DNA from: a virus
Reading direction: 5' to 3' (one strand)
DNA: 54,750 bases
Virus record (IMG/VR): IMGVR_UViG_3300011113_000434
Span: 1 to 54,750 of that record
Shown here: positions 17,301 through 54,750 of the stretch, in pieces
Layout: every line of letters starts with the position of its first letter
Numbering within the stretch: position 1 is the first letter of the stretch
Notes under the pieces: model-generated
What the model was told of the DNA's origin: nothing
Seen by the model: only the letters and a program-made list of their open reading frames with translations
Databases searched by the model: none
Position numbers and translations under genes: made by a program

Positions 17301-19529
17301 GATCTTTTCCCAGACAGAGGCAAGAACTTTACTATTACCAGTATTCCAAGTGCAAATCAAATTGTAACTAATGTTGGCGTTTCTACAATAAACCATAATT
17401 ATGTTGGTGATGGATATGCATATGCTGTTAAGAGAACTGGTCCATATTCTGTAACAAGGGTACTAAGTAATACTCAATTTGAAACTAATGTTTATACTGT
17501 TGGATTTGCTCATACTTATGTAAGTGGTGGTGAAGTTTCTAAGTATTATAGTTTCCAACCAGGATCTGGTTATAGAGGAGAAATTGGAGTTGCTTTAAGT
17601 TCTCCAACTGGTAGTGGTGCAAACATTACAGCGTTTGCTGGAATTGGTGGAACCCTAGGATTTAAGATTAATTCTGCTGGATCTGGATACGGATTTGATA
17701 ATACCTACGTTACTATTCCTGAACCATCTTATGAGAATGTTCAAATTAAGGGGGTTTCAAGAGTTGGTATTGGATCCACAACTGAAACTGGAATTGGTCT
17801 GCTACTATCTCTTGAAGTTGGTGCAGCAGCAACAACTGGAATTGGATCAGATACTTGTGAAATTACAAACTTTAGAATTAGCAGACCTGGTTATGCATTC
17901 CAATTAGGAGATGTATTCACTGCTGTTGGATTAGTAACTGCTAAAAATCTAGTATCTCCTATTAATCAATTTGAGTTAACGGTTACTAATCTTTATTCTG
18001 ATTCATTTGCTGCTTGGCAATTTGGTGAACTAGACTTTATTGATTCTATTAAACCTCTACAGGATGGATCTAGAACGAGATTCCCACTACTTTATAATGG
18101 TCAACTTCTAAGTTTTGAAATTAATGCCAATGATCCAGATTCTTCTCAGATTGATCTTAATGCTGTTCTACTGATTTATATCAATGGTGTACCACAAACC
18201 CCAGGTGTAGCATATCAATTTGATGGAGGAACATCATTTACATTTACAACACCACCATCAGAAGAAGCCGATGTTGCTATTTTCTTCTACAGAGGAACAA
18301 GAAATAGTGATAGTATATTTGTAAATGTTAATGAAACTATTAAACCTGGAGATATTATTCAAATTGGTAAAAATAATGATATCAGAACTACTGTAGAACA
18401 ATATCCAAGAGTTGTATATGACATTAGTTCGGCTGATAAAGTGCAAACAAATCTATATGCAGATATTGGAATTGATGATACAAACTATAAACCAGTTAAT
18501 TGGAGAAAACAAAAAGTAGACCAAATTCTTGGTGGTGAATATGTCTATAAGACTAGAGATTCTTTAGAGTCTTCAGTATATCCAACTGGAAAGATTATTA
18601 AAAATCTCTCAGCAACAGATATAGATTTATTTGTTGATGATGCTAGATTCTTTAATTATGAAGAAAATGAATCTGTTATTGCAATTGGTGATTTTGATTT
18701 GATATTAACTAATACACCAGAAGATCCTGTTGCCGCTAGATTAACTGCAAATGTTTCTACCGCAGGAACAGTTAGCTCTTTAACCGTTGCTAACGGTGGA
18801 AGTGGATATAGTTCAGGAACTGCTACAGTTAAGATTGCTGCTCCAAAGAGCATTGGAATTGGAATTGGAACAACAGCAGTTGCAACCGTAACCGTGCTTA
18901 ATGGAACAATTGTAAGTGCAACCGTTACTAATGGTGGATTTGGATACTCACAATCAAAACCACCTGCGGTTATCGCTTCGGTTCAGAAAGCATATTATGA
19001 GAATATTACAAATGTAACCAGTGTTCTAGGATTCTCTGGAATTATAACTGGTATTACAACAACCTCAGGAACTGGTGGCCACCCATTAGCACTAAAACTG
19101 TTCTTAAATACAAGTACTTCATTTGCTTCACTATTAGATAATTATCCAATTTACGTTTTTGATACTGCTGTTGGAAGAGGTGTAACTTCTGTAGATGGTG
19201 GAAATAATTCTGTGGTTGGTGTTGGAACAACTTTTGCAGACAATATTTACTATGTACACTCAATAACACGTTATGGCGTAAATGCAGAAATTATTACAAA
19301 TATTCACAGTGGAACATCTGTTGTTGGACTGGCGACAACAGGAAGTACTACAAACCCTGTTGGTAAATTCTCTTGGGGTAAATTTGGTGGATTCACTAGA
19401 GGATCTACTGCAGTTTCAATTGGTATAACTGGATTAACAGTCAGTTCTGGATTATCAACATTCCCAACTGTCCAAAGAAGAGGATATGGATTGAGAGATC
19501 ATGGTGGATTGAGAAAAATTCTTGTTTAA
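5358..19529 (+). CDS. giant (4723 aa) baseplate/tail-associated protein in the gp7 position
   Basis: One uninterrupted frame follows gp6 where T4 has gene 7, so its N-terminus (about 1-250, containing FIREARSFYQAKGTEESFRI) is probably the wedge-attached part. T4 gp7 has about 1030 residues; this is over four times longer. Most of the rest is a mosaic of beta modules. These are GSGY-type repeats, a D-E-M...RG..GT..H module (about 98-136, 1543-1575, 3346-3398), a GD.V.Y...YYV..D...L module, and a YHYH domain (about 1195-1285, with IIGWAYDGNPIYGPYGY). Residues about 3640-4045 are a tandem duplication. The C-terminus ends RGYGLRDHGGLRKILV. It has no signal peptide or obvious enzyme motif. The likely role is a large peripheral baseplate structure for host contact. 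The gp7 identity is inferred from position. Confidence 0.75.
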   Translation: MISTGFDARVKINQIIESQLPEFLLSESPKSIEFFKQYYISQEFTGGSYDIAENLDQYLKLDNLTPEVITASTSLSSNITSNSGVVTVTSTKGFPSEYGLLKIDDEIITYTGLTTNTFTGCIRGFSGISSYHSETNPEELVFSSTDAASHSSGSTVENLSVAFLKEFYKKLKYSLTPGLEDEDFVPDLNVGNFIREARSFYQAKGTEESFRILFNVLYGYTPKVINLDNLLLRPSSAAFLRREVIIAEKISGNPNNLIGQTIYKSTDLKTKASVSNVEILTRGQKTYYRLDLFVGFSDADVVEGNFTISPKSRVIDSVSIGSSVITVDSTIGFDQSGTVICGNNTITYLDKTINQFLGCSGVDFAISPATDIRSDEVYYGYEDGDINAKSEIRITGVLSDFTELNNIEEVIVGEKILVKNLGESISNPDSANQSYKQLFANSWIYNTSSRFNILNISGSTFTLGTEIDDSSLKVGDHVDILIRNTQTIVVSDAIVANINKSNKQIILNNIISFSPVSSIDYDIRRKINKASSNAAEIEYGNNQIVSDVQNVYNELDEYFYVASNSLPSYPIEIEFTEASISDAIGGGSLQGLDVNTETYSIISFAQAVPFITGDEVVYSSQNSDIPGLVSGSTYFVKVLPLTNQIKLYASRSFIEIDDYVMFYETLIAGSHTFTLSSQKNRKVFPQKLLRKFPLSQNIKNGSNEKTNTGSIGLLVNGVEIINYKSDEKVYYGPIDNIKVFNQGENYDVINPPTIEVAAPSSGVQALIRPVVSGIVTDVVVDPQDFDIADVTSVTITGGNGSGCQLQPILEDRYRTVSFDARVTTQSGGVDINQETITFLTNHNFKNGEPIVYSNNGNQNLGVATYFGGNFDQSRYLVNGGTYYAKLFSNNTIRLHPTLTDFISGINTVGFSTINAVGIHKFRTFNSRKTLRAIKVLNSGSGYENRKLYAKPSAVSLSQDWISFDNHNFKDGDLVTYSTTGSAISGLSTSNQYYVIKYDSDTFRLANAGIGGTISSNYARGSYVKLNSQGSGYHIFSYPEISLNVNVSFASSTAGIITATPVIRGKIVDAYLYENGSGYGSKTINLHKKPQISIKTGTGAELKAFVVNGIIVSVQVLAAGSNYNAAPDLVVNGEGIGAVLRAKVSGGSITDVIVINGGSNYVQNTTSVSVQPPGKNAFIDISVRSLTINYANRFGKETLLPSENNVGYGWIGYSTSIALDQFSDDGANHSPIIGWAYDGNPIYGPYGYSDPEDSASTIKLLKTGYTLNPSIITNRPSGFSPGFFVEDYIYDDSGDLDYHNGRYTKTPEFPNGVYAYFTGISTNVATNELDPSFPYFIGDTYRSTVIQDNFLNLNQTFDFNSSNLIRNTYPYKVNQDYADNDFIIESNEVTNQSLIVESTTKGSINSYEILEAGDGYAMGESAVFDNSGTNGGGLSAEVSSLKGKTIANIQTQTQIYNNVVFTWKDKTSVEATVSPYHTLLDQENVSISGLSTYVPKLTGSHSVGVSTESIVVFKEIPANSVSGLVTDIYVSRVSNTISIGSTLGIGTEFMSVLNIFKDQNVLRVKRGVTGTAHTDRTRIDILANKLTVPISINHFDGYLNDKFYFNPKYSIGIGRTDGISSLVKVSIGETSQDVSVLSRSIYAPNHPFKNNQRVVLSIPPGSSPISVANTSGGAAFTIPYTGVSTQTLYVVNKSPNSIGLVTEFSTTSYIVSFGSTLAVTNAEYSNVTGILTVTTSTPHSFSPGFSLASLSSLVFGQVSPNDAYTTTQYTLWADVLFDKEDEIFIVNTPSGLLPTGTFAVLSTPNVNTFTVNVGTSLTAFGYSYGGSVLGFTSFTVYNSDGLYFLNNGSDNYEYLLRSDYTEVTGKIEKNKTVVSISTDHGLKNGDNITLTVKPNLTVGIGTSSFVKVKINSTEGKILINPIGFGSVGISTFSGVINIPSHGYATGDKVFYNASDEIASGLTTSSYYVYRIDNDNIKLSESYKDVISNPPTTISIASTGGKNQELSLINPPISAIKGNNLKFDLSDSSLVGYKLKIYYDVDLANEFISIGGSSFTVANYGTVGVTTNAALIIEYSDTIPSKLFYALEKSGYISTSDKEVVNSSQISFVDSLYNGSYKIVGVGSTTFELSLAQKPERSQYTINECRELKYTTTSLNARGGVDKMKIVFGGFGYKRLPLFQYINSDTGINANINILSDNIGNIKDIRILDQGFEYASDKTLRPEALISPLLTLVDNTEITSVEVLDGGKNYTSAPNIVIYNPSTDEIVNSGYLKANTYSNSVSNVEIIDVPKGLNAVVHELYAVDNTNGVGINTIISGPGVVTCFLSTPAIGFSTAPFAVGDVIFVEGIQNNTSQGDGFNSIDHNFTFFTVNKFVNTVPARLEYDISVATNNPGLAKTDQFSFANIVKKSDLPRFRITQAESKFKLGETIAVKNSNGSFTIQDLIVTDFRSNKIKILGEYELVTGDIIKGQISGSIAEIENTSPNKGRFETDYSLRKDFGWSDDVGKLNEDYQVIPDNDYYQNLSYTVKSPLEYEELITPVNRLLHSTGMKNFADTQVSTSSTLSIQSEDVTSLALIDIINEESVEEIKNLDLGLDVDVLVDGSQKSKFFKFKNRKLADYIECRTNRVLLIDDISTQFSNSNLNEGGYADIYNYSETYARFLVQIKDTNERFMQLSELIVLYTDSEVLIEGIKDAKTFTLEKGSLYNKANPIGNLDGNIDQFDNLTLRFTPQSTFIDDYDIKILVNKFNTTVGGGSSINNYGAVSLNSRSKQVGSGTSETIIEFDSTKVDGFHGTIHVLDLENNEMNFYEVYSYTDRTDVYMSEYYFDNQKATTSASTNVLGTFTSYLSGGVLKLDFDNNKTLTNKLVRARIVGFGSTALGIGTYRFALPGQPQERSARYDSSVVHTVGASSTTVVGVASDIISSVKSYVRVSAGNTSALHQVMMMHDGREIYVLQYPFLSIGSTTGIGTFGGQFVSDLVRLNFYPDSNITGVVTITSFNEKLYAFADRQNKAPDFVYGPETDSLVLSEYNGTQGDRINRLDFTASYQGYPIFSKSFDPGDSAQLNLATGIFTIKNHFFQTNEKLNYQSASTFVGVNPVSVGIGSTLVGGVTFTGDFISGFSTITGVSTSTGLLVGQTVIGPGVQNNTTIVSIGQTFRWFRGNVSTGSTVITGIANTAIMVVGSGIFSGNGTNLGTLISIGINSISASTTLPVGTGVTYYINALGIGVSLSKVSTATTFRQTYTSGIVTTICPSTVYAIKLDNDRFKLTGTQGSGIAFTFTSAGSGNAHKLTMDKRLEKSLICIDNVNQYPLAFTPISYKLANNSGQIGAANTVFGISGISSIRVNDVLKVDNEFMKILSFGYGSSTTGPISGIGTFLLMSVERGFSGTIATAHLDNADARIYRGAYNIEESTIYFTAAPLGSGVNVLDSSNLKRPVSKFDGRVYLRKDYTTNKIYDDISDSFTGIAQTFRLRNQGNSTTGVEAGSGVVFVNEMFQTPTTGNNAGNNYALQENSGNTNVIFTGITSSDGSIVKSLVDVNQNQLPRGGIIISLGSTPGLGYAPLKGAQVGIITGPSGQITNIVSVATTGSYSSMTGFSYNQVTGVATVSTAASHGLLVNDQISFRNIKLECPDGYAGLGTVGISSLFYSNVTGFMTVTTSSPHKLATGMNIRLRNLRFDCPIGVGGTIGIVTAQYSKATGVLTVTTNYAHGLGIGGTVQLRELQFSCTGPSGITTTIFPDGTRGYFFPVNNVGSTTSFTTNVGTSTITHNYQRGGYVRVGVTTDLFPDGSRGYIFTVASIVGPNTFGVNVGTSTIRHNYINGGTIESGITTNIFPDSRGVPFSISNFQYHKTTGVSTITFNSNHNFKLSDTIKIVNARFDCPIAAGTTIGITSAQYSKTTGILTVTTATPHGLGVGGTTRIFAMNFSCPPGSSGITTTVFPDGTRGYFFPVNLVGFPTQFTTNVGTSTITHNYVNGGYIQIGITTDLFPDRGKNFTITSIPSANQIVTNVGVSTINHNYVGDGYAYAVKRTGPYSVTRVLSNTQFETNVYTVGFAHTYVSGGEVSKYYSFQPGSGYRGEIGVALSSPTGSGANITAFAGIGGTLGFKINSAGSGYGFDNTYVTIPEPSYENVQIKGVSRVGIGSTTETGIGLLLSLEVGAAATTGIGSDTCEITNFRISRPGYAFQLGDVFTAVGLVTAKNLVSPINQFELTVTNLYSDSFAAWQFGELDFIDSIKPLQDGSRTRFPLLYNGQLLSFEINANDPDSSQIDLNAVLLIYINGVPQTPGVAYQFDGGTSFTFTTPPSEEADVAIFFYRGTRNSDSIFVNVNETIKPGDIIQIGKNNDIRTTVEQYPRVVYDISSADKVQTNLYADIGIDDTNYKPVNWRKQKVDQILGGEYVYKTRDSLESSVYPTGKIIKNLSATDIDLFVDDARFFNYEENESVIAIGDFDLILTNTPEDPVAARLTANVSTAGTVSSLTVANGGSGYSSGTATVKIAAPKSIGIGIGTTAVATVTVLNGTIVSATVTNGGFGYSQSKPPAVIASVQKAYYENITNVTSVLGFSGIITGITTTSGTGGHPLALKLFLNTSTSFASLLDNYPIYVFDTAVGRGVTSVDGGNNSVVGVGTTFADNIYYVHSITRYGVNAEIITNIHSGTSVVGLATTGSTTNPVGKFSWGKFGGFTRGSTAVSIGITGLTVSSGLSTFPTVQRRGYGLRDHGGLRKILV
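16280..17490 (+). repeat. ~606-bp tandem duplication inside the giant baseplate gene
   Basis: Two consecutive units (about 16280-16885 and 16886-17490) encode the same series: Y-x-x-TG-x-x-TVTT-x-x-x-HGL, F-x-CP, SGITTT-x-FPDGTRGYFFPVN, FTTNVGTSTITHNY, then a GITTDLFPD strand. A 39-base stretch starting at 16557 recurs exactly at 17163. Another (AGATTTGATTGTCCAATTG) lies at 16374 and 16977. The 606- and 603-base offsets show a one-codon indel. A partial third unit precedes them from about 16130. Confidence 0.75.
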
Positions 19530-48333: not shown

Positions 48334-48341
48334 TATAAATA
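48334..48341 (+). promoter_or_regulatory. T4-type late promoter TATAAATA (gp22)
   Basis: Exact T4 late octamer two bases after the gp21 stop and 31 bases before the gp22 ATG. Confidence 0.7.
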
Positions 48342-49545: not shown

Positions 49546-50958
49546 ATGCAAATGTTCAATGCAGAACATCTGCAGGAAAAGTGGGCACCACTGCTAGACT
49601 ATACAGGTCTTGATCCTATTAAGGATTCACATCGCAGAATGGTAACCGCTGTCCTGCTCGAAAACCAAGAAAACGCAATTCGTGAAGAGCGTGAGTTCCT
49701 TTACGAAGCACCAACCAACGGAACAGCTTCAGGTGCTAGTGGCGCTGGTTTTGGTGGTAGCGCACAAGGATTCAGCGCAGGTCCTACCGCAGGTTTCGAC
49801 CCTGTTCTGATCAGCCTAATCCGCCGTTCAATGCCAAACCTGATCGCTTACGATCTTTGTGGCGTTCAACCAATGAACGGTCCTACTGGACTGATCTTTG
49901 CAATGCGCTCACGCTACAGAAACCAAAGCGGAGCTGAGAGCTTCTACAACGAAGTTGATTCAGCATTCTCTGGTCAAGATAGCGGATTCAATGAGGTTAA
50001 CGGATATACTGACGGTACAGTTGGTATGGGTACTACCGCACAAGGCGGAAGCAACCCATCAATCCTTGATCCTTCTAACCAAACTGCTAACGCTGCAAGT
50101 GGCGCTAACCAGTATAACGTTGGTCAAGGACTCAGAACTGATTCTGCTGAATCTCTTGGAGAGAGCGATCAGTTCAACCAGATGGCATTCTCGATCGAGA
50201 AAGTCACTGTTACCGCTAAGTCACGTGCTCTGAAAGCTGAGTACAGCCTAGAACTGGCTCAGGACCTCAAGGCAATCCACGGTCTGAATGCTGAAGCGGA
50301 ATTAGCAAACATTCTCTCAACTGAGATTCTTGCTGAAATCAACCGCGAAGTTATCAGAACCATCTATAAGGTTGCTGAACCAGGTGCTCAGGTTAACACC
50401 GCTACTGCTGGTACTTTTGACCTCGACGTTGACTCCAACGGTCGTTGGTCGGTTGAGAAGTTCAAGGGTCTGATCTTCCAGATCGAGCGTGATGCAAACG
50501 CTATCGCCCAGAGAACTCGTAGAGGAAAGGGTAACATGATCCTCTGCTCTGCTGACGTTGCTTCGGCACTCACCATGGCAGGTGTTCTTGATTACACCCC
50601 TGCTCTCAACGCTAACCTCCAAGTCGATGATACTGGCAACACCTTCGCTGGTGTTCTCCAAGGTAAGTATCGTGTATATATTGACCCATATTCGGCAAAC
50701 GTTGCTGCAAACCAGTTCTACGTTGTCGGTTATAAGGGTTCCAGCCCATATGACGCTGGTCTCTTCTATTGCCCATATGTTCCTCTCCAAATGGTACGTG
50801 CCGTTGGTGAGAACACCTTCCAGCCAAAAATCGGGTTTAAGACTCGTTATGGCATGGTTGCGAACCCATTCGCTGAGGGTACTACCCAAGGTCAGGGCGC
50901 TCTTACAACTAACGCAAACCGTTACTACAGAAGAGTTAGAGTTCAAAACCTCATGTGA
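49546..50958 (+). CDS. 23: major capsid protein gp23
   Basis: gp23 builds the hexamers of the icosahedral head. The N-terminus MFNAEHLQEKWAPLLDYTGL, the propeptide site F-L52-Y53-E54/A55 for gp21, SLIRRSMPNLIAYDLCGVQP, and PTGLIFAMRSRY with ALKAEYSLELAQDLKAIHGL are all diagnostic. It ends RYYRRVRVQNLM. It has 470 residues (T4 521). The coding sequence has visibly more C-ending codons (AAC, CTC, GTC) than the neighbouring genes, as expected of the most abundant product. It has a strong ribosome-binding site upstream and a strong terminator downstream. T4 gene 24 (vertex protein) does not follow. Confidence 0.97.
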   Translation: MQMFNAEHLQEKWAPLLDYTGLDPIKDSHRRMVTAVLLENQENAIREEREFLYEAPTNGTASGASGAGFGGSAQGFSAGPTAGFDPVLISLIRRSMPNLIAYDLCGVQPMNGPTGLIFAMRSRYRNQSGAESFYNEVDSAFSGQDSGFNEVNGYTDGTVGMGTTAQGGSNPSILDPSNQTANAASGANQYNVGQGLRTDSAESLGESDQFNQMAFSIEKVTVTAKSRALKAEYSLELAQDLKAIHGLNAEAELANILSTEILAEINREVIRTIYKVAEPGAQVNTATAGTFDLDVDSNGRWSVEKFKGLIFQIERDANAIAQRTRRGKGNMILCSADVASALTMAGVLDYTPALNANLQVDDTGNTFAGVLQGKYRVYIDPYSANVAANQFYVVGYKGSSPYDAGLFYCPYVPLQMVRAVGENTFQPKIGFKTRYGMVANPFAEGTTQGQGALTTNANRYYRRVRVQNLM

Positions 50959-50977
50959 GTTTATTCACAGGTTTTCC

Positions 50978-51003
50978 AGAGGGTCTTCGGACCCTCTTTT
51001 TTT
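50978..51003 (+). terminator. Rho-independent terminator after gp23
   Basis: Perfect 8-bp stem AGAGGGTC (50978-50985) / GACCCTCT (50990-50997) closed by a UUCG tetraloop and followed by a run of T. It is the only strong intrinsic terminator I see in the window and insulates the capsid transcript from the recombination genes. Confidence 0.9.
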
Positions 51004-51004
51004 A

Positions 51005-51012
51005 TCTAAATA
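51005..51012 (+). promoter_or_regulatory. T4-type late promoter TCTAAATA (gp3-like/uvsY)
   Basis: Two mismatches from TATAAATA. It directly follows the gp23 terminator, where a new promoter is required, and lies 13 bases before the next ATG. Confidence 0.4.
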
Positions 51013-51025
51013 CAAATAAAAGATT

Positions 51026-51577
51026 ATGGCAACAAATATTCTTTCCAGACAGATTTCTAATCGCAATTTTCTTTCACCAATTGGGTTTAGATTTACGCTG
51101 GCAAGATTTCCTAAAGTATCTTTTTTCTCAAACTCAGCAAAAATTCCAGAAATTAGTTTACAAACATTAGTACAACCAACTTACTTAAAATCTCTTGATG
51201 TTCCAGGAAAACAATTGACCTTTGGAGATTTTACTCTAAGATTTTTGGTAGACGAAAATTTGGAAAATTATATGGCAATCCATAATTGGTTATATGGATT
51301 GGGAGCACCAGAATCTCTTCAACAATATGTTGATTTGATTGATGAGACTGGACAAGAAGATGAAAAAAAGGCATTTAGTGATGGAACTCTAAGAATTTTA
51401 AACAGCAATTACAGGGATATCGCTTTAGTAAAATTCAAAGACCTTTTTCCAACATCACTTAACTCATTGGATTTTGAAGCTCAGGAAACAGACATCAAAT
51501 ACTTTACAGCGGATGTAACTTTCAAGTATACTGTCTATACTATCACAAACGCAAACAACGAGAAATATGAACCTTGA
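51026..51577 (+). CDS. tail completion protein, gp3-like (tail-tube fold)
   Basis: The 183-residue product (NRNFLSPIGFRFTLARFPKV, then FGDFTLRFLVDENLENYMAI, then HNWLYGLGAPES) has the strand-helix pattern of tail-tube-family proteins. In T4-like cyanophages the gene between 23 and uvsY is annotated as gp3, the tail completion ring that caps the tube beneath gp15; T4 gp3 has 176 residues. A gp54-like tube initiator is an alternative because of the shared fold. It overlaps uvsY by 11 bases, an unusual linkage of a tail gene with a recombination gene. Confidence 0.65.
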   Translation: MATNILSRQISNRNFLSPIGFRFTLARFPKVSFFSNSAKIPEISLQTLVQPTYLKSLDVPGKQLTFGDFTLRFLVDENLENYMAIHNWLYGLGAPESLQQYVDLIDETGQEDEKKAFSDGTLRILNSNYRDIALVKFKDLFPTSLNSLDFEAQETDIKYFTADVTFKYTVYTITNANNEKYEP

Positions 51578-51998
51578 TGAAATTCAGGAGATGTGGCAGA
51601 GAGATTCTGTCATTGATCCTGATAATTTACACGATGAATCTTTAAAAATTCCCCAACTACATGCAAAGTATTATACAATCTATAATACAATTACTTTGTT
51701 GCGTGAAAAAGCAAGAGATACATTTAATAGAGTAAAGTTAGAAAGATACAACTACTACACTGGAAAGGCGCCTGTAGAGGTTTATGAGGAAGAACCTTTC
51801 CCATATAAGGTTAGAGATAAGGAAGCGTTACAGAGGCATATGGATGGGGATGAGAAGTTAAGTAAAATAGAACTAAAAATTAGATACTATGACATCATGC
51901 TGAAGTTTCTTGAAGAAGTTATTAAGACAATTTCAAATCGCACTTTTCAAATTAAAAATGCTATTGAATGGCACCGATTCCAGGCTGGGTTTAACTAA
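51567..51998 (+). CDS. uvsY: recombination mediator UvsY
   Basis: UvsY loads the UvsX recombinase onto gp32-coated single-stranded DNA. The 143 residues (T4 137) match the family: MNLDEIQEMWQRDSVIDPDN, a mid helix with RYNYYTGKAPVEVYEEEPFP, KVRDKEALQRHMDGDEKLSK, and the C-terminal oligomerisation helix ending FQIKNAIEWHRFQAGFN (T4 ends FAIKHIQDMRAFEAGK). It begins inside the gp3-like gene. Its stop lies in a late promoter. UvsX is not in the window; UvsW follows after one intervening gene. Confidence 0.93.
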   Translation: MNLDEIQEMWQRDSVIDPDNLHDESLKIPQLHAKYYTIYNTITLLREKARDTFNRVKLERYNYYTGKAPVEVYEEEPFPYKVRDKEALQRHMDGDEKLSKIELKIRYYDIMLKFLEEVIKTISNRTFQIKNAIEWHRFQAGFN

Positions 51999-52001
51999 AT
52001 A
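51994..52001 (+). promoter_or_regulatory. T4-type late promoter ACTAAATA
   Basis: Two mismatches from TATAAATA. It contains the uvsY stop (TAA 51996-51998) and lies 20 bases before the next ATG. Confidence 0.4.
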
Positions 52002-52021
52002 AAGATAAACTGTCTGTAAAA

Positions 52022-53986
52022 ATGAAGACGTTTGTAAAATTTATATCTGAGTGTTATTTTTTTCTAACCGAAGCTAAAAAAGAAGGTGGTCGTGGTGGCC
52101 CAGACTATGACTATGAGCAATCTTTTGTGAATCTCTATAATCATATGGCGTCCGATTCTAGTAAGAAAGGCGCTGAGATGAGAAAGCAATTTAGACTTGC
52201 TGTGTCCAAAGGTGATATGTTCACAGTTGTTGATTTAATTTCAAGAGAAATACAAAGAGCTCAAACAGACCCTTCATCACCTTTATATTTTGATAATCTA
52301 GACCCAACTGATCCTGGTTTTACTGGTGGAAAAAGATCTAAAACTGGAGAGGTTGAAGATAAAGAAGCGCACAGACAAGCATATTATGATAAATTAATGA
52401 ATCAACAATATTCATTATTGAATTTTGTTCAAAGTGAAAGTGGTAGAGGACAAGTAATTAATCGTGCTGTTGCACAAAGAGAAGGTGCTACTAAAGTTCC
52501 ACTAACAGCAAAAGGAAAGGAACTAACTGGAAAAGAACAAGATACATCTAAAGTTGATGTTTCATTTACTGGTAAAGATGGAAATACATATGGAATTTCC
52601 TTAAAAGATGCCAAAGGTGCTGTTGTTAATTCATCTGGATCGGAAGAAACAAAAGCATATATTCTTCTTGGAATGGATTCTCTGTTAAATCAGCAAGAGC
52701 AATCTGGAGAAATTACTCCAGAACAGAGAGCAGAAAAAGAAGCAATGGGCACTGAACTTGCCAATCAACTTGCTCTTTATATGGCAAGTACAAGAGGCAT
52801 GTCTAAAGAGCAACAGAAAGATGCCCTTGGACAAATGCAAGAGTATTTAAGTAGTATTGAATCGGTTGTTCCAGGAACTATGCAGGCCATGTCTGCTGAA
52901 GCAATTACTGGAAAAGGAAAATATGGTGATGCCAGCACTGTTGATGCTTTATTTTCTACTGGTAGGGGTGGAGAAGTTATTGAAGATCCTTCATGGTTGG
53001 CACAATATGTTTTTCAAAGAGGAAGACTTGGTAAAGGTCAAACCAAACCAAAAGAAGGTCCTAGAGTACAAAGACCAACCACTATTGCTGGCGATATCAA
53101 AAATTATAGAGATGCTGAAAACAAACCAGAAGATAGTGAATATCTAAGAAAGTGGAGAGATGAATGGGGTCAATCTGCATGGGAGAAAAAAATTGGCGGA
53201 TTTGAACCAGAAATTCAAGATGAAATAAGAAAACTTCAAGGAACTGGTCAATTTAGTTTACGTGATTTATATAATTATGAACAACAAGATACTCAGGTTA
53301 AGCAATTGAAATCATTTGATCAATTCCAGCAAGATGCACAATCTTCAGAAAAAGATTTAATCTCTAAGCAAAAACAATATGATGCTACTGCAGCAGAAGT
53401 TGAAAAGGCTTCAGTACCTATTGATCCAGAAACTGGAAAAGAAGTTCTACATCAACGTAGACCAAATTTAAAAGCATTTATGGCAAGCAATCCAACATCA
53501 AAGGTTGCTCAAGTTAATAATGAAAGGCAGCAACAAGCTCAAGCAAAATTAACACAAGCACAGAGCGAACTTGACAATGCTTCTGCAATACACCAATCAA
53601 ATCAATCTAATTTAGACACTGTAGCATCTTCTATACAAGCACAACAACAGGCAGCAGCAGAAAAAGAACAACAACCAACTCAAACTCCAACCACAAATAA
53701 TCAACAACAGCAACAACAAACAACACAATTACCTCCTCAAGAAACACCACAACCAGAGCAACCTAAAAAACCAACACAACAAACTCAGCAAGTTGCACAA
53801 TCACAACCTGCAACACCAGAACCAACCCAACAGCAGCAACAACCAATTGCAACTACACAACAACCAACACCAACACCAACAGAAAAACCAACACCAACAG
53901 AAAAACCAATACAAGAACCTCAAAAAAAGAAAAGAAACGGAAAAGAACAAATCCAACCTGAAACTACTCAAACTCAACCACAATAA
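52022..53986 (+). CDS. unknown 654-aa protein: capsid-targeting-like N-terminus, nuclease-like motif, Gln/Pro-rich tail
   Basis: The N-terminus MKTFVKFISECYFFLTEAKK resembles the T4 internal-protein targeting leader. It has two candidate gp21 sites, I8-S9-E10/C11 and L15-T16-E17/A18. A globular part (about 30-430) contains KVDVSFTGKDGNTYGISLKD. D179 and S-L-K195 there resemble a variant PD-(D/E)XK nuclease core, the usual acid before x-K being Ser. Residues about 430-540 are a predicted coiled coil. Residues 540-654 are low-complexity Gln/Pro/Thr with a basic KKKRNGK patch. It lies between uvsY and uvsW behind a late-type promoter. I infer a head-packaged protein, possibly ejected with DNA; nuclease activity is speculative. 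No family is recognised. Confidence 0.5.
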   Translation: MKTFVKFISECYFFLTEAKKEGGRGGPDYDYEQSFVNLYNHMASDSSKKGAEMRKQFRLAVSKGDMFTVVDLISREIQRAQTDPSSPLYFDNLDPTDPGFTGGKRSKTGEVEDKEAHRQAYYDKLMNQQYSLLNFVQSESGRGQVINRAVAQREGATKVPLTAKGKELTGKEQDTSKVDVSFTGKDGNTYGISLKDAKGAVVNSSGSEETKAYILLGMDSLLNQQEQSGEITPEQRAEKEAMGTELANQLALYMASTRGMSKEQQKDALGQMQEYLSSIESVVPGTMQAMSAEAITGKGKYGDASTVDALFSTGRGGEVIEDPSWLAQYVFQRGRLGKGQTKPKEGPRVQRPTTIAGDIKNYRDAENKPEDSEYLRKWRDEWGQSAWEKKIGGFEPEIQDEIRKLQGTGQFSLRDLYNYEQQDTQVKQLKSFDQFQQDAQSSEKDLISKQKQYDATAAEVEKASVPIDPETGKEVLHQRRPNLKAFMASNPTSKVAQVNNERQQQAQAKLTQAQSELDNASAIHQSNQSNLDTVASSIQAQQQAAAEKEQQPTQTPTTNNQQQQQQTTQLPPQETPQPEQPKKPTQQTQQVAQSQPATPEPTQQQQQPIATTQQPTPTPTEKPTPTEKPIQEPQKKKRNGKEQIQPETTQTQPQ

Positions 53987-53989
53987 ATA
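53982..53989 (+). promoter_or_regulatory. T4-type late promoter AATAAATA (uvsW)
   Basis: One mismatch from TATAAATA. It contains the stop of the upstream gene (TAA 53984-53986). By T4 spacing, transcription would start near 53995, inside the hairpin described next. Confidence 0.55.
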
Positions 53990-54009
53990 CCCATAGATTC
54001 ATTATGGGT
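53989..54009 (+). promoter_or_regulatory. hairpin covering the uvsW translation-initiation region
   Basis: ACCCATA (53989-53995) pairs perfectly with TATGGGT (54003-54009) across a 7-base loop. The 3' arm holds the only Shine-Dalgarno-like G run and ends two bases before the uvsW ATG. The 5' arm begins at the last base of the late promoter, so late transcripts would lack it while read-through transcripts would fold. Confidence 0.6.
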
Positions 54010-54011
54010 AC

Positions 54012-54750
54012 ATGTCTCATTTGGTGATATCAAAAAAGAACGAAGTATATCTGCAGGTTAAAGCGGAACCGCATGTATACTACGAACTTGCTGATCAATT
54101 TACTTTTGACGTACCAGGTGCCAAGTTTATGCCCCAGTTTCGTAACAAATACTGGGATGGAAAAATACGTTTGTTTAACACACAAACTGGTGAAATCTAT
54201 GTTGGTCTTTTAGATAAACTCACCAATTTTTGTAAAAATCATGAATATACTTATGAGTTTACAAACAATAAATTTTATGGTCTTCCTTTTGAGGTAAATG
54301 AACATATCTCAAAAGAAGGTGTAAAAGATTATATGAATTCTATTTGTAAGTATGCTCCCCGTGAGTACCAAGTTGAGGGAGTATACGACGCTTTACGACA
54401 TAATCGAAAGTTGTTGATATCTCCAACTGCTTCTGGAAAGTCGTTGATGATATATTCGATTGTCCGATATTACGTTGAGAAAGGACAAAATACTCTGATA
54501 GTCGTTCCAACGACATCGCTTGTAGAGCAGATGTATAAAGACTTTGCAGATTATGGGTGGGATGTCGGTTCATACTGCCACAAAATATACGCAGGTAAAG
54601 AGAGAGAAACAGACTCTCAGGTTATCATTACAACCTGGCAGTCCATCTACAAACTTCCCCGACAATATTTCTCAAGATTTAATGTGGTCGTTGGAGATGA
54701 AGCACACCAGTTTAAATCAAAGTCATTAGTATCTATAATGACAAAACTTT
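54012..54750 (+). CDS. uvsW: UvsW helicase (5' part, runs off the window)
   Basis: UvsW is a superfamily 2 helicase that unwinds R-loops and branched DNA and helps switch T4 from origin- to recombination-dependent replication. The first 246 residues show the N-terminal domain PGAKFMPQFRNKYWDGKIRL (T4 RFNPRFRYGNWDGRIRLL), a Q-motif-like PREYQVEGV (about 116-124) and Walker A SPTASGKS (137-144). Motif Ia VVPTTSLVEQM (164-174), TTWQSIYK (207-214) and motif II GDEAH (228-232; T4 has DECH) follow. The frame is open to the window end. The start is ATG 54012; ATG 54004 leads to an early stop. Confidence 0.95.
   Translation, partial: MSHLVISKKNEVYLQVKAEPHVYYELADQFTFDVPGAKFMPQFRNKYWDGKIRLFNTQTGEIYVGLLDKLTNFCKNHEYTYEFTNNKFYGLPFEVNEHISKEGVKDYMNSICKYAPREYQVEGVYDALRHNRKLLISPTASGKSLMIYSIVRYYVEKGQNTLIVVPTTSLVEQMYKDFADYGWDVGSYCHKIYAGKERETDSQVIITTWQSIYKLPRQYFSRFNVVVGDEAHQFKSKSLVSIMTKL

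Follow-up and report, generated by a model that had tools for sequence, protein, structure and literature searches.

The start of uvsW in the window (the whole 54,750-nucleotide stretch that we analysed, from a marine virus of cyanobacteria) follows a T4-type late promoter box that runs into the 5' arm of a hairpin, and this hairpin is probably an RNA off-switch acting only on RNA that enters uvsW from the upstream genes. The best reading of the sequence is that the uvsW leader belongs, as a new member, to the T4 class of e, soc, 49 and I-TevI and would silence uvsW on read-through RNA. The box, the stem, the covariation of its arms, the position of the 5' arm and a conserved A at the expected +1 are present in the sequences themselves; the start site, the existence of read-through RNA, the block to translation and the timing are what we infer from them. 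Read-through RNA would carry both arms, hiding the region just before the start codon (in some relatives the start codon too), and uvsW would be poorly translated from it. RNA from the uvsW late promoter would begin where the 5' arm ends, on its last base or the adjoining one, would form no stem and would be translated. UvsW synthesis would thus be tied to its own gp55-type late promoter, and the protein may be kept off until late, by analogy with T4 UvsW, which unwinds R-loops at early origins of replication. The features concerned are listed in Table 1.

Table 1. The uvsW junction and the genes upstream of it (positions in the window)
Feature	Position	Strand	Basis or remark
Gene 23 major capsid protein	49546-50958	+	domain search
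Tail completion / tail tube protein (gp3 position)	51026-51577	+	gp3 at that place in annotated relatives
uvsY	51567-51998	+	same direction as uvsW
CTAAATA box 5' of the 654-aa ORF	51995-52001	+	possible origin of RNA running into uvsW; looks late
654-aa Gln/Thr/Pro-rich ORF, function unknown	52022-53986	+	no family match
T4-type late promoter box AATAAATA (NATAAATA)	53982-53989	+	sequence reading
Hairpin 5' arm	53988-53996	+	fold; nearly all between box and inferred +1
Inferred late transcription start	53995	+	last A of box + 6; T4 spacing
Loop of hairpin	53997-54001	+	fold
Hairpin 3' arm	54002-54010	+	fold and covariation in relatives; spans -10 to -2 of the uvsW start
uvsW, DNA/RNA-DNA helicase	54012-54750, cut by window end	+	UvsW_N and helicase domains; ATG at 54012

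The sequence-only reading from which we started described a 7-bp stem (53989-53995/54003-54009). This stem is present, and the full folded stem is longer, with nine pairs: eight Watson-Crick pairs and a closing G-U. The 33-nt hairpin piece folds at -9.4 kcal/mol, compared with a shuffle mean of -3.9 (z -2.77; 1 of 200 shuffles equally stable). The 3' arm ends one base 5' of the ATG and lies, as had been proposed, over the ribosome-binding region of uvsW, but the masked region contains no canonical Shine-Dalgarno sequence, and there is no strong one to hide. An Rfam cmscan search of 50900-54750 up to E=5 gave no match at the hairpin; a weak U6atac match within uvsW was taken as chance. An intrinsic terminator for the uvsW strand was rejected, with no T run following 54010 on the + strand; the terminator scan listed the stem on the - strand only, with the tail TTATTGTGGT. 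Like the split ribosome-binding sites of T4 genes 25 and 38, the hairpin stands just 5' of a start codon; in those genes the helix improves initiation and the Shine-Dalgarno sequence lies upstream of it (PMC3014915). No GGAG-like stretch was found by eye in 53950-53987, and a helix of this type was also rejected.

A set of 353 sequences was collected, 350 of them with UvsW; they yielded 212 distinct junctions, of which 209 had 45 nt of upstream sequence. Hairpins and terminators were called in the 208 junctions with 120 nt upstream (184 of them with a box at 18-25 nt), and the tree was built on 191 rows with 700 nt of the gene. All loci were best or listed matches, and the junction counts are not frequencies in nature. 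Among the matches listed, TAAATA occurs within 60 nt of the uvsW start in 186 of the 209 junctions and 18-25 nt before it in 185. The T4 late box spans -13 to -6 (excerpt of PMC1524935), which places the expected +1 at the sixth base after the box; among the matches listed, 103 of 120 distinct leaders have A at that base, and the proposed late start near 53995 is to that extent upheld at the sequence level. With +1 there, the bulk of the 5' arm precedes it: in 65 distinct hairpin leaders, the 5' base is upstream of the inferred +1 in 386 of 586 stem pairs. Late RNA begun at this place would lack most of the arm, which falls between the box and the inferred +1.

Compensatory changes at the same junction in relatives had been set beforehand as a test that could refute the proposal, and the stem was found to covary by exchange, alignment and tree analyses. 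When leader halves were exchanged between phages, the native folds of 118 leaders were more stable than the exchanged ones (-4.98 versus -2.18, p=9e-13), as they were for the 47 leaders with more than 4 differing bases (-3.59 versus -1.72, p=0.003) and for the 34 with more than 7 (p=0.048). The native fold was better than the mean exchanged fold in 85/118, 28/47 and only 18/34 leaders as the set grew stricter, and the share of hairpins drops to 12/39 among divergent leaders, indicating that the exchange signal is carried by a subset. In an alignment of 30 leaders (26 chosen by their 5' arm and 4 with the same layout added by hand), 98.1% of cells were paired, compared with at most 46% in slid registers, and in 14 cells both partners had changed (5.7 on average in shuffles; 0 of 500 with as many). 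On the tree, the 5' and 3' letters of three variable pairs shifted together in about 15 independent row pairs and oppositely in 1; no single pair was significant alone, and the pooled sign test (p=0.0005) is not fully independent, as the three pairs share one tree, and is biased toward pairing, as the 82 rows had been kept for having 6 or more of the 8 pairs. The arms thus vary widely yet change jointly. In the largest group (26 leaders), G-U pairs outnumber A-C mismatches by 33 to 4 (12 to 5 and 3 to 3 in two small groups), an excess that points to pairing on the mRNA strand.

Removal of the 5' arm was modelled by folding. In hairpin leaders, the median cost of opening -12 to +6 fell on truncation from 13.2 to 7.0 kcal/mol, whereas in leaders without a hairpin it fell from 8.7 to 6.7. 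A drop of at least 2 kcal/mol was seen in 55 of 65 hairpin leaders, and also in 29 of 55 without a called hairpin. For the window, the predicted release is partial: the computed opening cost of the uvsW start region decreased from 14.1 (long RNA) to 7.9 kcal/mol (short RNA), but the mean unpaired probability of -12 to +6 rose only from 0.32 to 0.40. The late RNA can adopt another fold of -7.1 kcal/mol, which is not more stable than that of shuffled sequences (z +0.86), suggesting that the start would not be fully open.

Hairpins better than shuffled leaders were called, among the matches listed, in 100 of the 184 junctions with a box at 18-25 nt, and only 3 of 24 junctions without such a box scored. 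The mean MFE of 125 distinct leaders was -4.87 versus -1.36 for shuffled ones, with 68 of 125 at p<=0.05. The cultured phages P-SSM2 and S-SKS1 both have the uvsW hairpin. It is dispensable, since 84 of the 184 leaders (among the matches listed) and four of the five rows nearest to the window on the tree (L250, L171, L177 and L258) are without it; on sequence evidence, it has been gained and lost repeatedly among relatives. The structure is concentrated at uvsW: 62 of 112 uvsW leaders have hairpins compared with 17 of 155 other-gene leaders of the same geometry (Fisher 3e-15), although these controls include at least four uvsW leaders missed by the sorting motif (L336, L322 and two beginning MSHLVI), and L336 is one of the 17 that scored. 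When all candidate late leaders were ranked by energy with no hairpin cut-off, the uvsW leader was lowest in P-SSM2 (53 leaders), S-SKS1 (52) and the window (14), and a significant hairpin was found at uvsW only among the 14 boxes located 14-35 nt 5' of an ORF start in the window. An endonuclease VII-like gene (T4 gene 49 family) was rejected as a second case: a box is present in relatives, but the weak fold is equally a direct repeat.

No terminator-like stem was listed on the + strand between 50998 and 54012; with the genes co-directional, longer RNA from upstream likely reads into uvsW. The stop codon of the 654-aa ORF (TAA, 53984-53986) sits within the promoter box, as upstream stop codons do in 33 of 98 hairpin junctions, and a terminating ribosome would briefly cover the 5' arm and could transiently melt the hairpin. 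The upstream ORF ends in the box or within 12 nt before it in 80 of 98 hairpin junctions versus 41 of 84 others, and junctions with only a terminator-like stem are roomier (1 of 22 within 12 nt). In the 184 junctions, 7 had both structures, 93 the hairpin only, 22 the terminator only and 62 neither (Fisher p=5e-4); on the tree, about 4 informative independent pairs nearly always ran in the expected direction (median p 0.125), and the 62 junctions with neither count against a strict either/or rule. A tentative and rather doubtful generalization is that interchangeable modules at one conserved late promoter keep UvsW off read-through RNA in marine T4-like cyanophages. Where the upstream gene reaches right up to the promoter, the module would be a start-masking hairpin set in the stretch between box and +1 that is not transcribed; where space allows, it would be a terminator 5' of the box; and in the S-CAM7 type it would be a terminator-like stem with the promoter in its 5' arm. 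The modules would have been swapped many times.

Masking of the start as a whole draws support from the covariation, the conserved A and a 5' arm lying mostly before +1, and is weakened by the lack of universality, the mostly hairpin-free nearest rows, the other late fold and the stop codon in the box. A serious competitor, to which we give somewhat less credence than to the off-switch, is that the same hairpin limits dose, not timing: it would block translation of uvsW, or re-initiation by ribosomes that have just finished the upstream ORF, on abundant late polycistronic RNA from the head and tail genes to the uvsY region, and the amount of UvsW would be set by its own promoter. Late-looking boxes at 51996, at 51007 (before the gp3-position gene) and at 48336/48340 (before a 371-aa ORF that precedes gene 23) fit this account, as does the close abutment of upstream ORFs at hairpin junctions, a layout with a danger of re-initiation, together with the greater room at terminator-only junctions. 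Dose control is nevertheless compatible with a timing role; PMC2984593, PMC3037559, PMC5931967, PMC5082946 and PMC10976474 contain nothing on the timing of uvsW in cyanophages, the word uvsW occurring in none of them.

If the true start were further upstream, the hairpin would be present in all uvsW RNA and could bind a translational repressor, like the T4 gene 43 operator, a known form of start-codon-proximal hairpin (PMC3014915, in part). We consider this unlikely, because the arms and loops of different groups have no sequence in common (the 100 hairpin junctions have 19 different 6-mers between box and +1), unlike an operator, and the 5' arm contains a conserved A at the expected +1. The overlap of the repeat with the promoter would suit an inverted repeat acting as DNA, as operator or cruciform, but the predominance of G-U over A-C in the largest group and the lack of conserved sequence make this very improbable, and a DNA-level palindrome was rejected. 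There is also little probability that the window hairpin is a chance structure or decaying remnant of a class that is real in other phages. Its absence from four of the five nearest relatives favours this, and a hairpin of its size is not rare in itself, perfect Watson-Crick hairpins of at least 8 bp with loops of 3-9 numbering 23 in the window and 4-9 in five dinucleotide-shuffled windows. However, the window has 39 TAAATA boxes on the + strand, and of the 23 hairpins only that at uvsW lies in the 26 nt following one of them. Moreover, L311 (same contig as L078; 82% UvsW identity) keeps identical paired arms with one loop base changed, and L188, L161 and L249, from the same tree region, have other hairpins at the same place.

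The off-switch reading has close precedents. In T4 gene e, as in soc and 49, an inhibitory helix forms on early read-through RNA and is missing from late-promoter RNA (PMC3014915), so that the T4 examples e, soc and I-TevI invoked earlier are borne out and gene 49 joins them. As in e, soc and 49, the DNA encoding the helix's 5' strand contains the late promoter, and the start region is covered by the helix (PMC3014915); in our models, the uvsW start region is likewise within an RNA helix, and late promoter RNA, with +1 inferred at 53995, would be without the 5' strand. For uvsW too, sequence and folding predict a silent long RNA and an open short one. Unlike those genes, uvsW encodes a recombination and R-loop helicase in phages that infect cyanobacteria, and its inferred late leader is short (about 16-18 nt at the commonest spacings) and has no strong Shine-Dalgarno sequence. 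The promoter-in-arm layout is also that of the I-TevI, I-TevII, I-TevIII, segB and Aeh1 mobE hairpins (PMC2988022), but these genes encode mobile homing endonucleases, whereas uvsW is a core replication and recombination gene. T4 UvsW, the homologous protein, is likewise expressed from a late promoter, and it unwinds R-loops at origins (according to an excerpt of PMC3016281). Unlike in the window, the nearest upstream + strand TAAATA in T4T is 94 nt before the uvsW start, inside segE, with no hairpin at the start and with uvsY downstream on the other strand.

Under the off-switch reading, a control device known in T4 lysis, capsid and homing-endonuclease genes would also govern a core replication-switch gene in ocean viruses, and compensating arm changes and repeated gain and loss would provide evolutionary evidence for the device. 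The reading yields a clear prediction for P-SSM2 and S-SKS1, and would link late promoter geometry to the time at which the phage leaves R-loop origins. If the more doubtful module scheme were also true, strict control of UvsW, and with it of the change from R-loop origins to replication driven by recombination, would be strongly selected in ocean viruses.

In the window, uvsW is the last gene of a co-directional run. The late-type box in front of it, AATAAATA, contains the stop codon of the preceding 654-aa ORF and continues into the 5' arm of a predicted hairpin, whose 3' arm stops one base short of the uvsW ATG. A 7-bp stem had been proposed from the sequence-only reading; the stem was found at the same place, but folding extended the pairing to nine pairs, eight of them Watson-Crick. 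The folding stability of the 33-nt hairpin piece exceeded that of 199 of 200 shuffles. The window contains 23 hairpins with a stem of at least 8 bp, and the uvsW hairpin is the only one located within 26 nt past any of the 39 plus-strand TAAATA boxes. Among the 14 boxes placed 14-35 nt ahead of an ORF start, a significant hairpin was found solely at uvsW. The 654-aa ORF has a long Gln/Thr/Pro-rich tail and its own late-type box, and gave no Pfam or PHROGs match; the slot between uvsY and uvsW holds small hypothetical genes in several relatives and is empty in others.

Features of the 54,750-base window, a virus record, in the region leading to uvsW
Feature	Position	Remark
gene 23	49546-50958	co-directional with uvsW
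intrinsic-terminator-like stem	50978-50997	strong, with T run; in the intergenic gap following gene 23
tail completion protein, gp3 position	51026-51577	co-directional with uvsW
uvsY	51567-51998	co-directional with uvsW
CTAAATA box of the 654-aa ORF	51995-52001	
654-aa Gln/Thr/Pro-rich ORF	52022-53986	co-directional with uvsW
late-type box of uvsW	53982-53989	
predicted stem, 5' arm	53988-53996	
predicted stem, 3' arm	54002-54010	
uvsW	from 54012	cut off by window end

The uvsW start was located in IMG/VR loci among the matches listed, in 14 named phage records and in the window (353 sequences, 350 with UvsW), which gave 212 distinct junctions, 209 of which extended 45 nt or more upstream. In 186 of the 209, TAAATA was present within 60 nt of the start, and in 185 of these 186 the gap between its last A and the start codon was 18-25 nt. 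The T4 late box spans -13 to -6 (PMC1524935 section 12, in part); the sixth base past the box, +1 by T4 spacing, was A in 103 and a purine in 110 of 120 distinct leaders. A hairpin (MFE of at most -3 and p of at most 0.05) was called in 100 of the 184 junctions whose box lay at 18-25 nt and whose flank reached 120 nt, including the cultured phages S-SKS1 and P-SSM2; the shuffle p was at most 0.05 in 68 of 125 distinct box-to-start segments. The share was 19/52 once similar leaders were dropped and 12/39 under a stricter cut, and 3 of the 24 junctions lacking a box at 18-25 nt reached the hairpin score. On the uvsW tree (191 rows) the hairpin state changed 22 times, at least 17 of the changes being forced by well supported branches. 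Of the five rows closest to the window, four (L250, L171, L177 and L258) have an upstream terminator-like stem and no hairpin; the fifth, L249, has a hairpin with different arms, as do the nearby L188 and L161.

At equal box-to-start geometry in the same loci, the hairpin score was reached by 62 of 112 uvsW leaders versus 17 of 155 leaders sorted as other genes. In the leader surveys of P-SSM2 (n=53), S-SKS1 (n=52) and the window (n=14), uvsW had the lowest energy (-7.1, -8.2 and -9.3, with runners-up at -6.8, -6.6 and -3.1, respectively); two other leaders in P-SSM2 and two in S-SKS1 passed the cut-off, close to the number that a 5% rate predicts. Outside uvsW, the strongest case among the pooled loci was an HNH-like endonuclease gene, with a second such gene among the top cases, a gene type known in T4 for the promoter-nested hairpin layout. 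HNH-endonuclease-like genes (Pfam HNH just under cut-off) in contigs L196, near 3921 (+), and L099, near 2346 (-), have leaders that combine a terminator-like stem and TATAAATA with a strong hairpin at the gene start (-11.6 and -7.3 kcal/mol), like T4 homing endonucleases. In L354-L357 and L124, a gene resembling endonuclease VII (T4 gene 49 family) starts 23-24 nt after a TAAATA and has a repeated CGTATGA-like element, for which weak pairing is possible; in L358 a single base of the box is altered. L181 and L185 carry, on the uvsW strand and some 2.8-3 kb upstream of that gene, a 64-aa gene of unassigned function (MIRIDWEYPEVPEYD...) whose late box is followed by a hairpin over the start (-10.6 and -8.1 kcal/mol). 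In P-SSM2, near 17936, a hairpin precedes a 225-aa ORF, and the box of TTTAAATACTTAAAAAGTATTTAAATG is part of one of the hairpin's arms.

Covariation of the stem in relatives, named in the sequence-only reading as a check, was observed. In 30 aligned leaders pairing was kept in 98.1% of cells, and both sides had changed at four pairs, in 14 cells, above all 500 shuffles; with the partner slid, pairing was at most 46%. On the tree, the partner letters of the three variable pairs moved in step in about 5.0, 5.2 and 4.4 independent row pairs, against 1.0, 0 and 0 in which they diverged; no pair was significant singly, and slid partners had overall no co-movement trend (about 10 together, 12 apart). 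Because the row set was preselected for pairing, we regard the tree covariation as supporting, not decisive. The box-to-+1 gap comprised 19 different 6-mers among the 100 hairpin junctions. Exchange of halves between leaders weakened the fold on average; in the most divergent leader set the native fold was better than the mean exchanged fold in just 18 of 34, as expected if the structure is limited to a subset of leaders. The largest leader group had 33 G-U versus 4 A-C, as expected if the sense RNA is what folds.

In 65 distinct leaders, the 5' base was upstream of the expected +1 in 386 of 586 stem pairs (two thirds), and late RNA would lose at least 60% of the stem pairs in 53 leaders. The opening cost of the start region was computed at 25 C for RNA with and without the sequence before +1; starting at +1 lowered it by a median of 5.7 kcal/mol with a hairpin versus 2.2 in other leaders. 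For the window it fell from 14.1 to 7.9; the short RNA can still adopt an alternative fold of -7.1 kcal/mol, no better than its own shuffles. The best-supported reading is that RNA reading in from upstream genes would carry both arms and translate uvsW poorly, and that RNA begun at the uvsW late promoter would lack the 5' arm.

Of 29 terminator calls, 26 were intrinsic-terminator-like stems with T runs that directly precede the late promoter of uvsW, at about 40-45 nt from the uvsW start (contigs L003, L007, L009, L011, L015 and others), mostly in leaders without a start hairpin. The upstream ORF ended inside the box or at most 12 nt before it in 80 of 98 hairpin junctions versus 41 of 84 without a hairpin, and in 1 of 22 terminator-only junctions. 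This excess hints that hairpins are used where a terminator has no room. A ribosome terminating in or near the box could open the stem briefly. In a third layout, found in S-CAM7 (upstream of uvsW at 1201) and in contigs L283 and L286, uvsW is directly preceded by a stem with a T run after it, and the CTAAATA box forms part of the stem's 5' arm; upstream RNA could stop there, and promoter RNA, without the 5' arm, would not. Judged from its arrangement, this layout could follow the same logic as the start hairpin, with a terminator replacing the mask. L287, which neighbours S-CAM7, L283 and L286 on the tree, has the stem and no T run.

Expression of T4 uvsW was reportedly addressed by Derr and Kreuzer in 1990. 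The uvsW of T4T differs from the hairpin junctions, with its nearest upstream plus-strand box 94 nt before the start codon and no hairpin at the start itself. The promoter-nested hairpin logic, named in the sequence-only reading for T4 e, soc and I-TevI, is indeed described for them and also for 49 (PMC3014915 section 29), as well as for segB and mobE (PMC2988022 section 12). The word uvsW is absent from PMC3014915 and occurs twice in PMC2988022, where a table row gives uvsW as the segE site; PMC1524935 has it 14 times and the word hairpin 0 times. Among the titles and abstract openings listed from the open-licence literature there was no report of a nested start hairpin at uvsW. The hairpin block may serve either timing or dose. 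In T4, a late promoter drives UvsW expression and the protein unwinds early-origin R-loops (PMC3016281 section 7, in part), and silence of uvsW before late times would therefore make sense.
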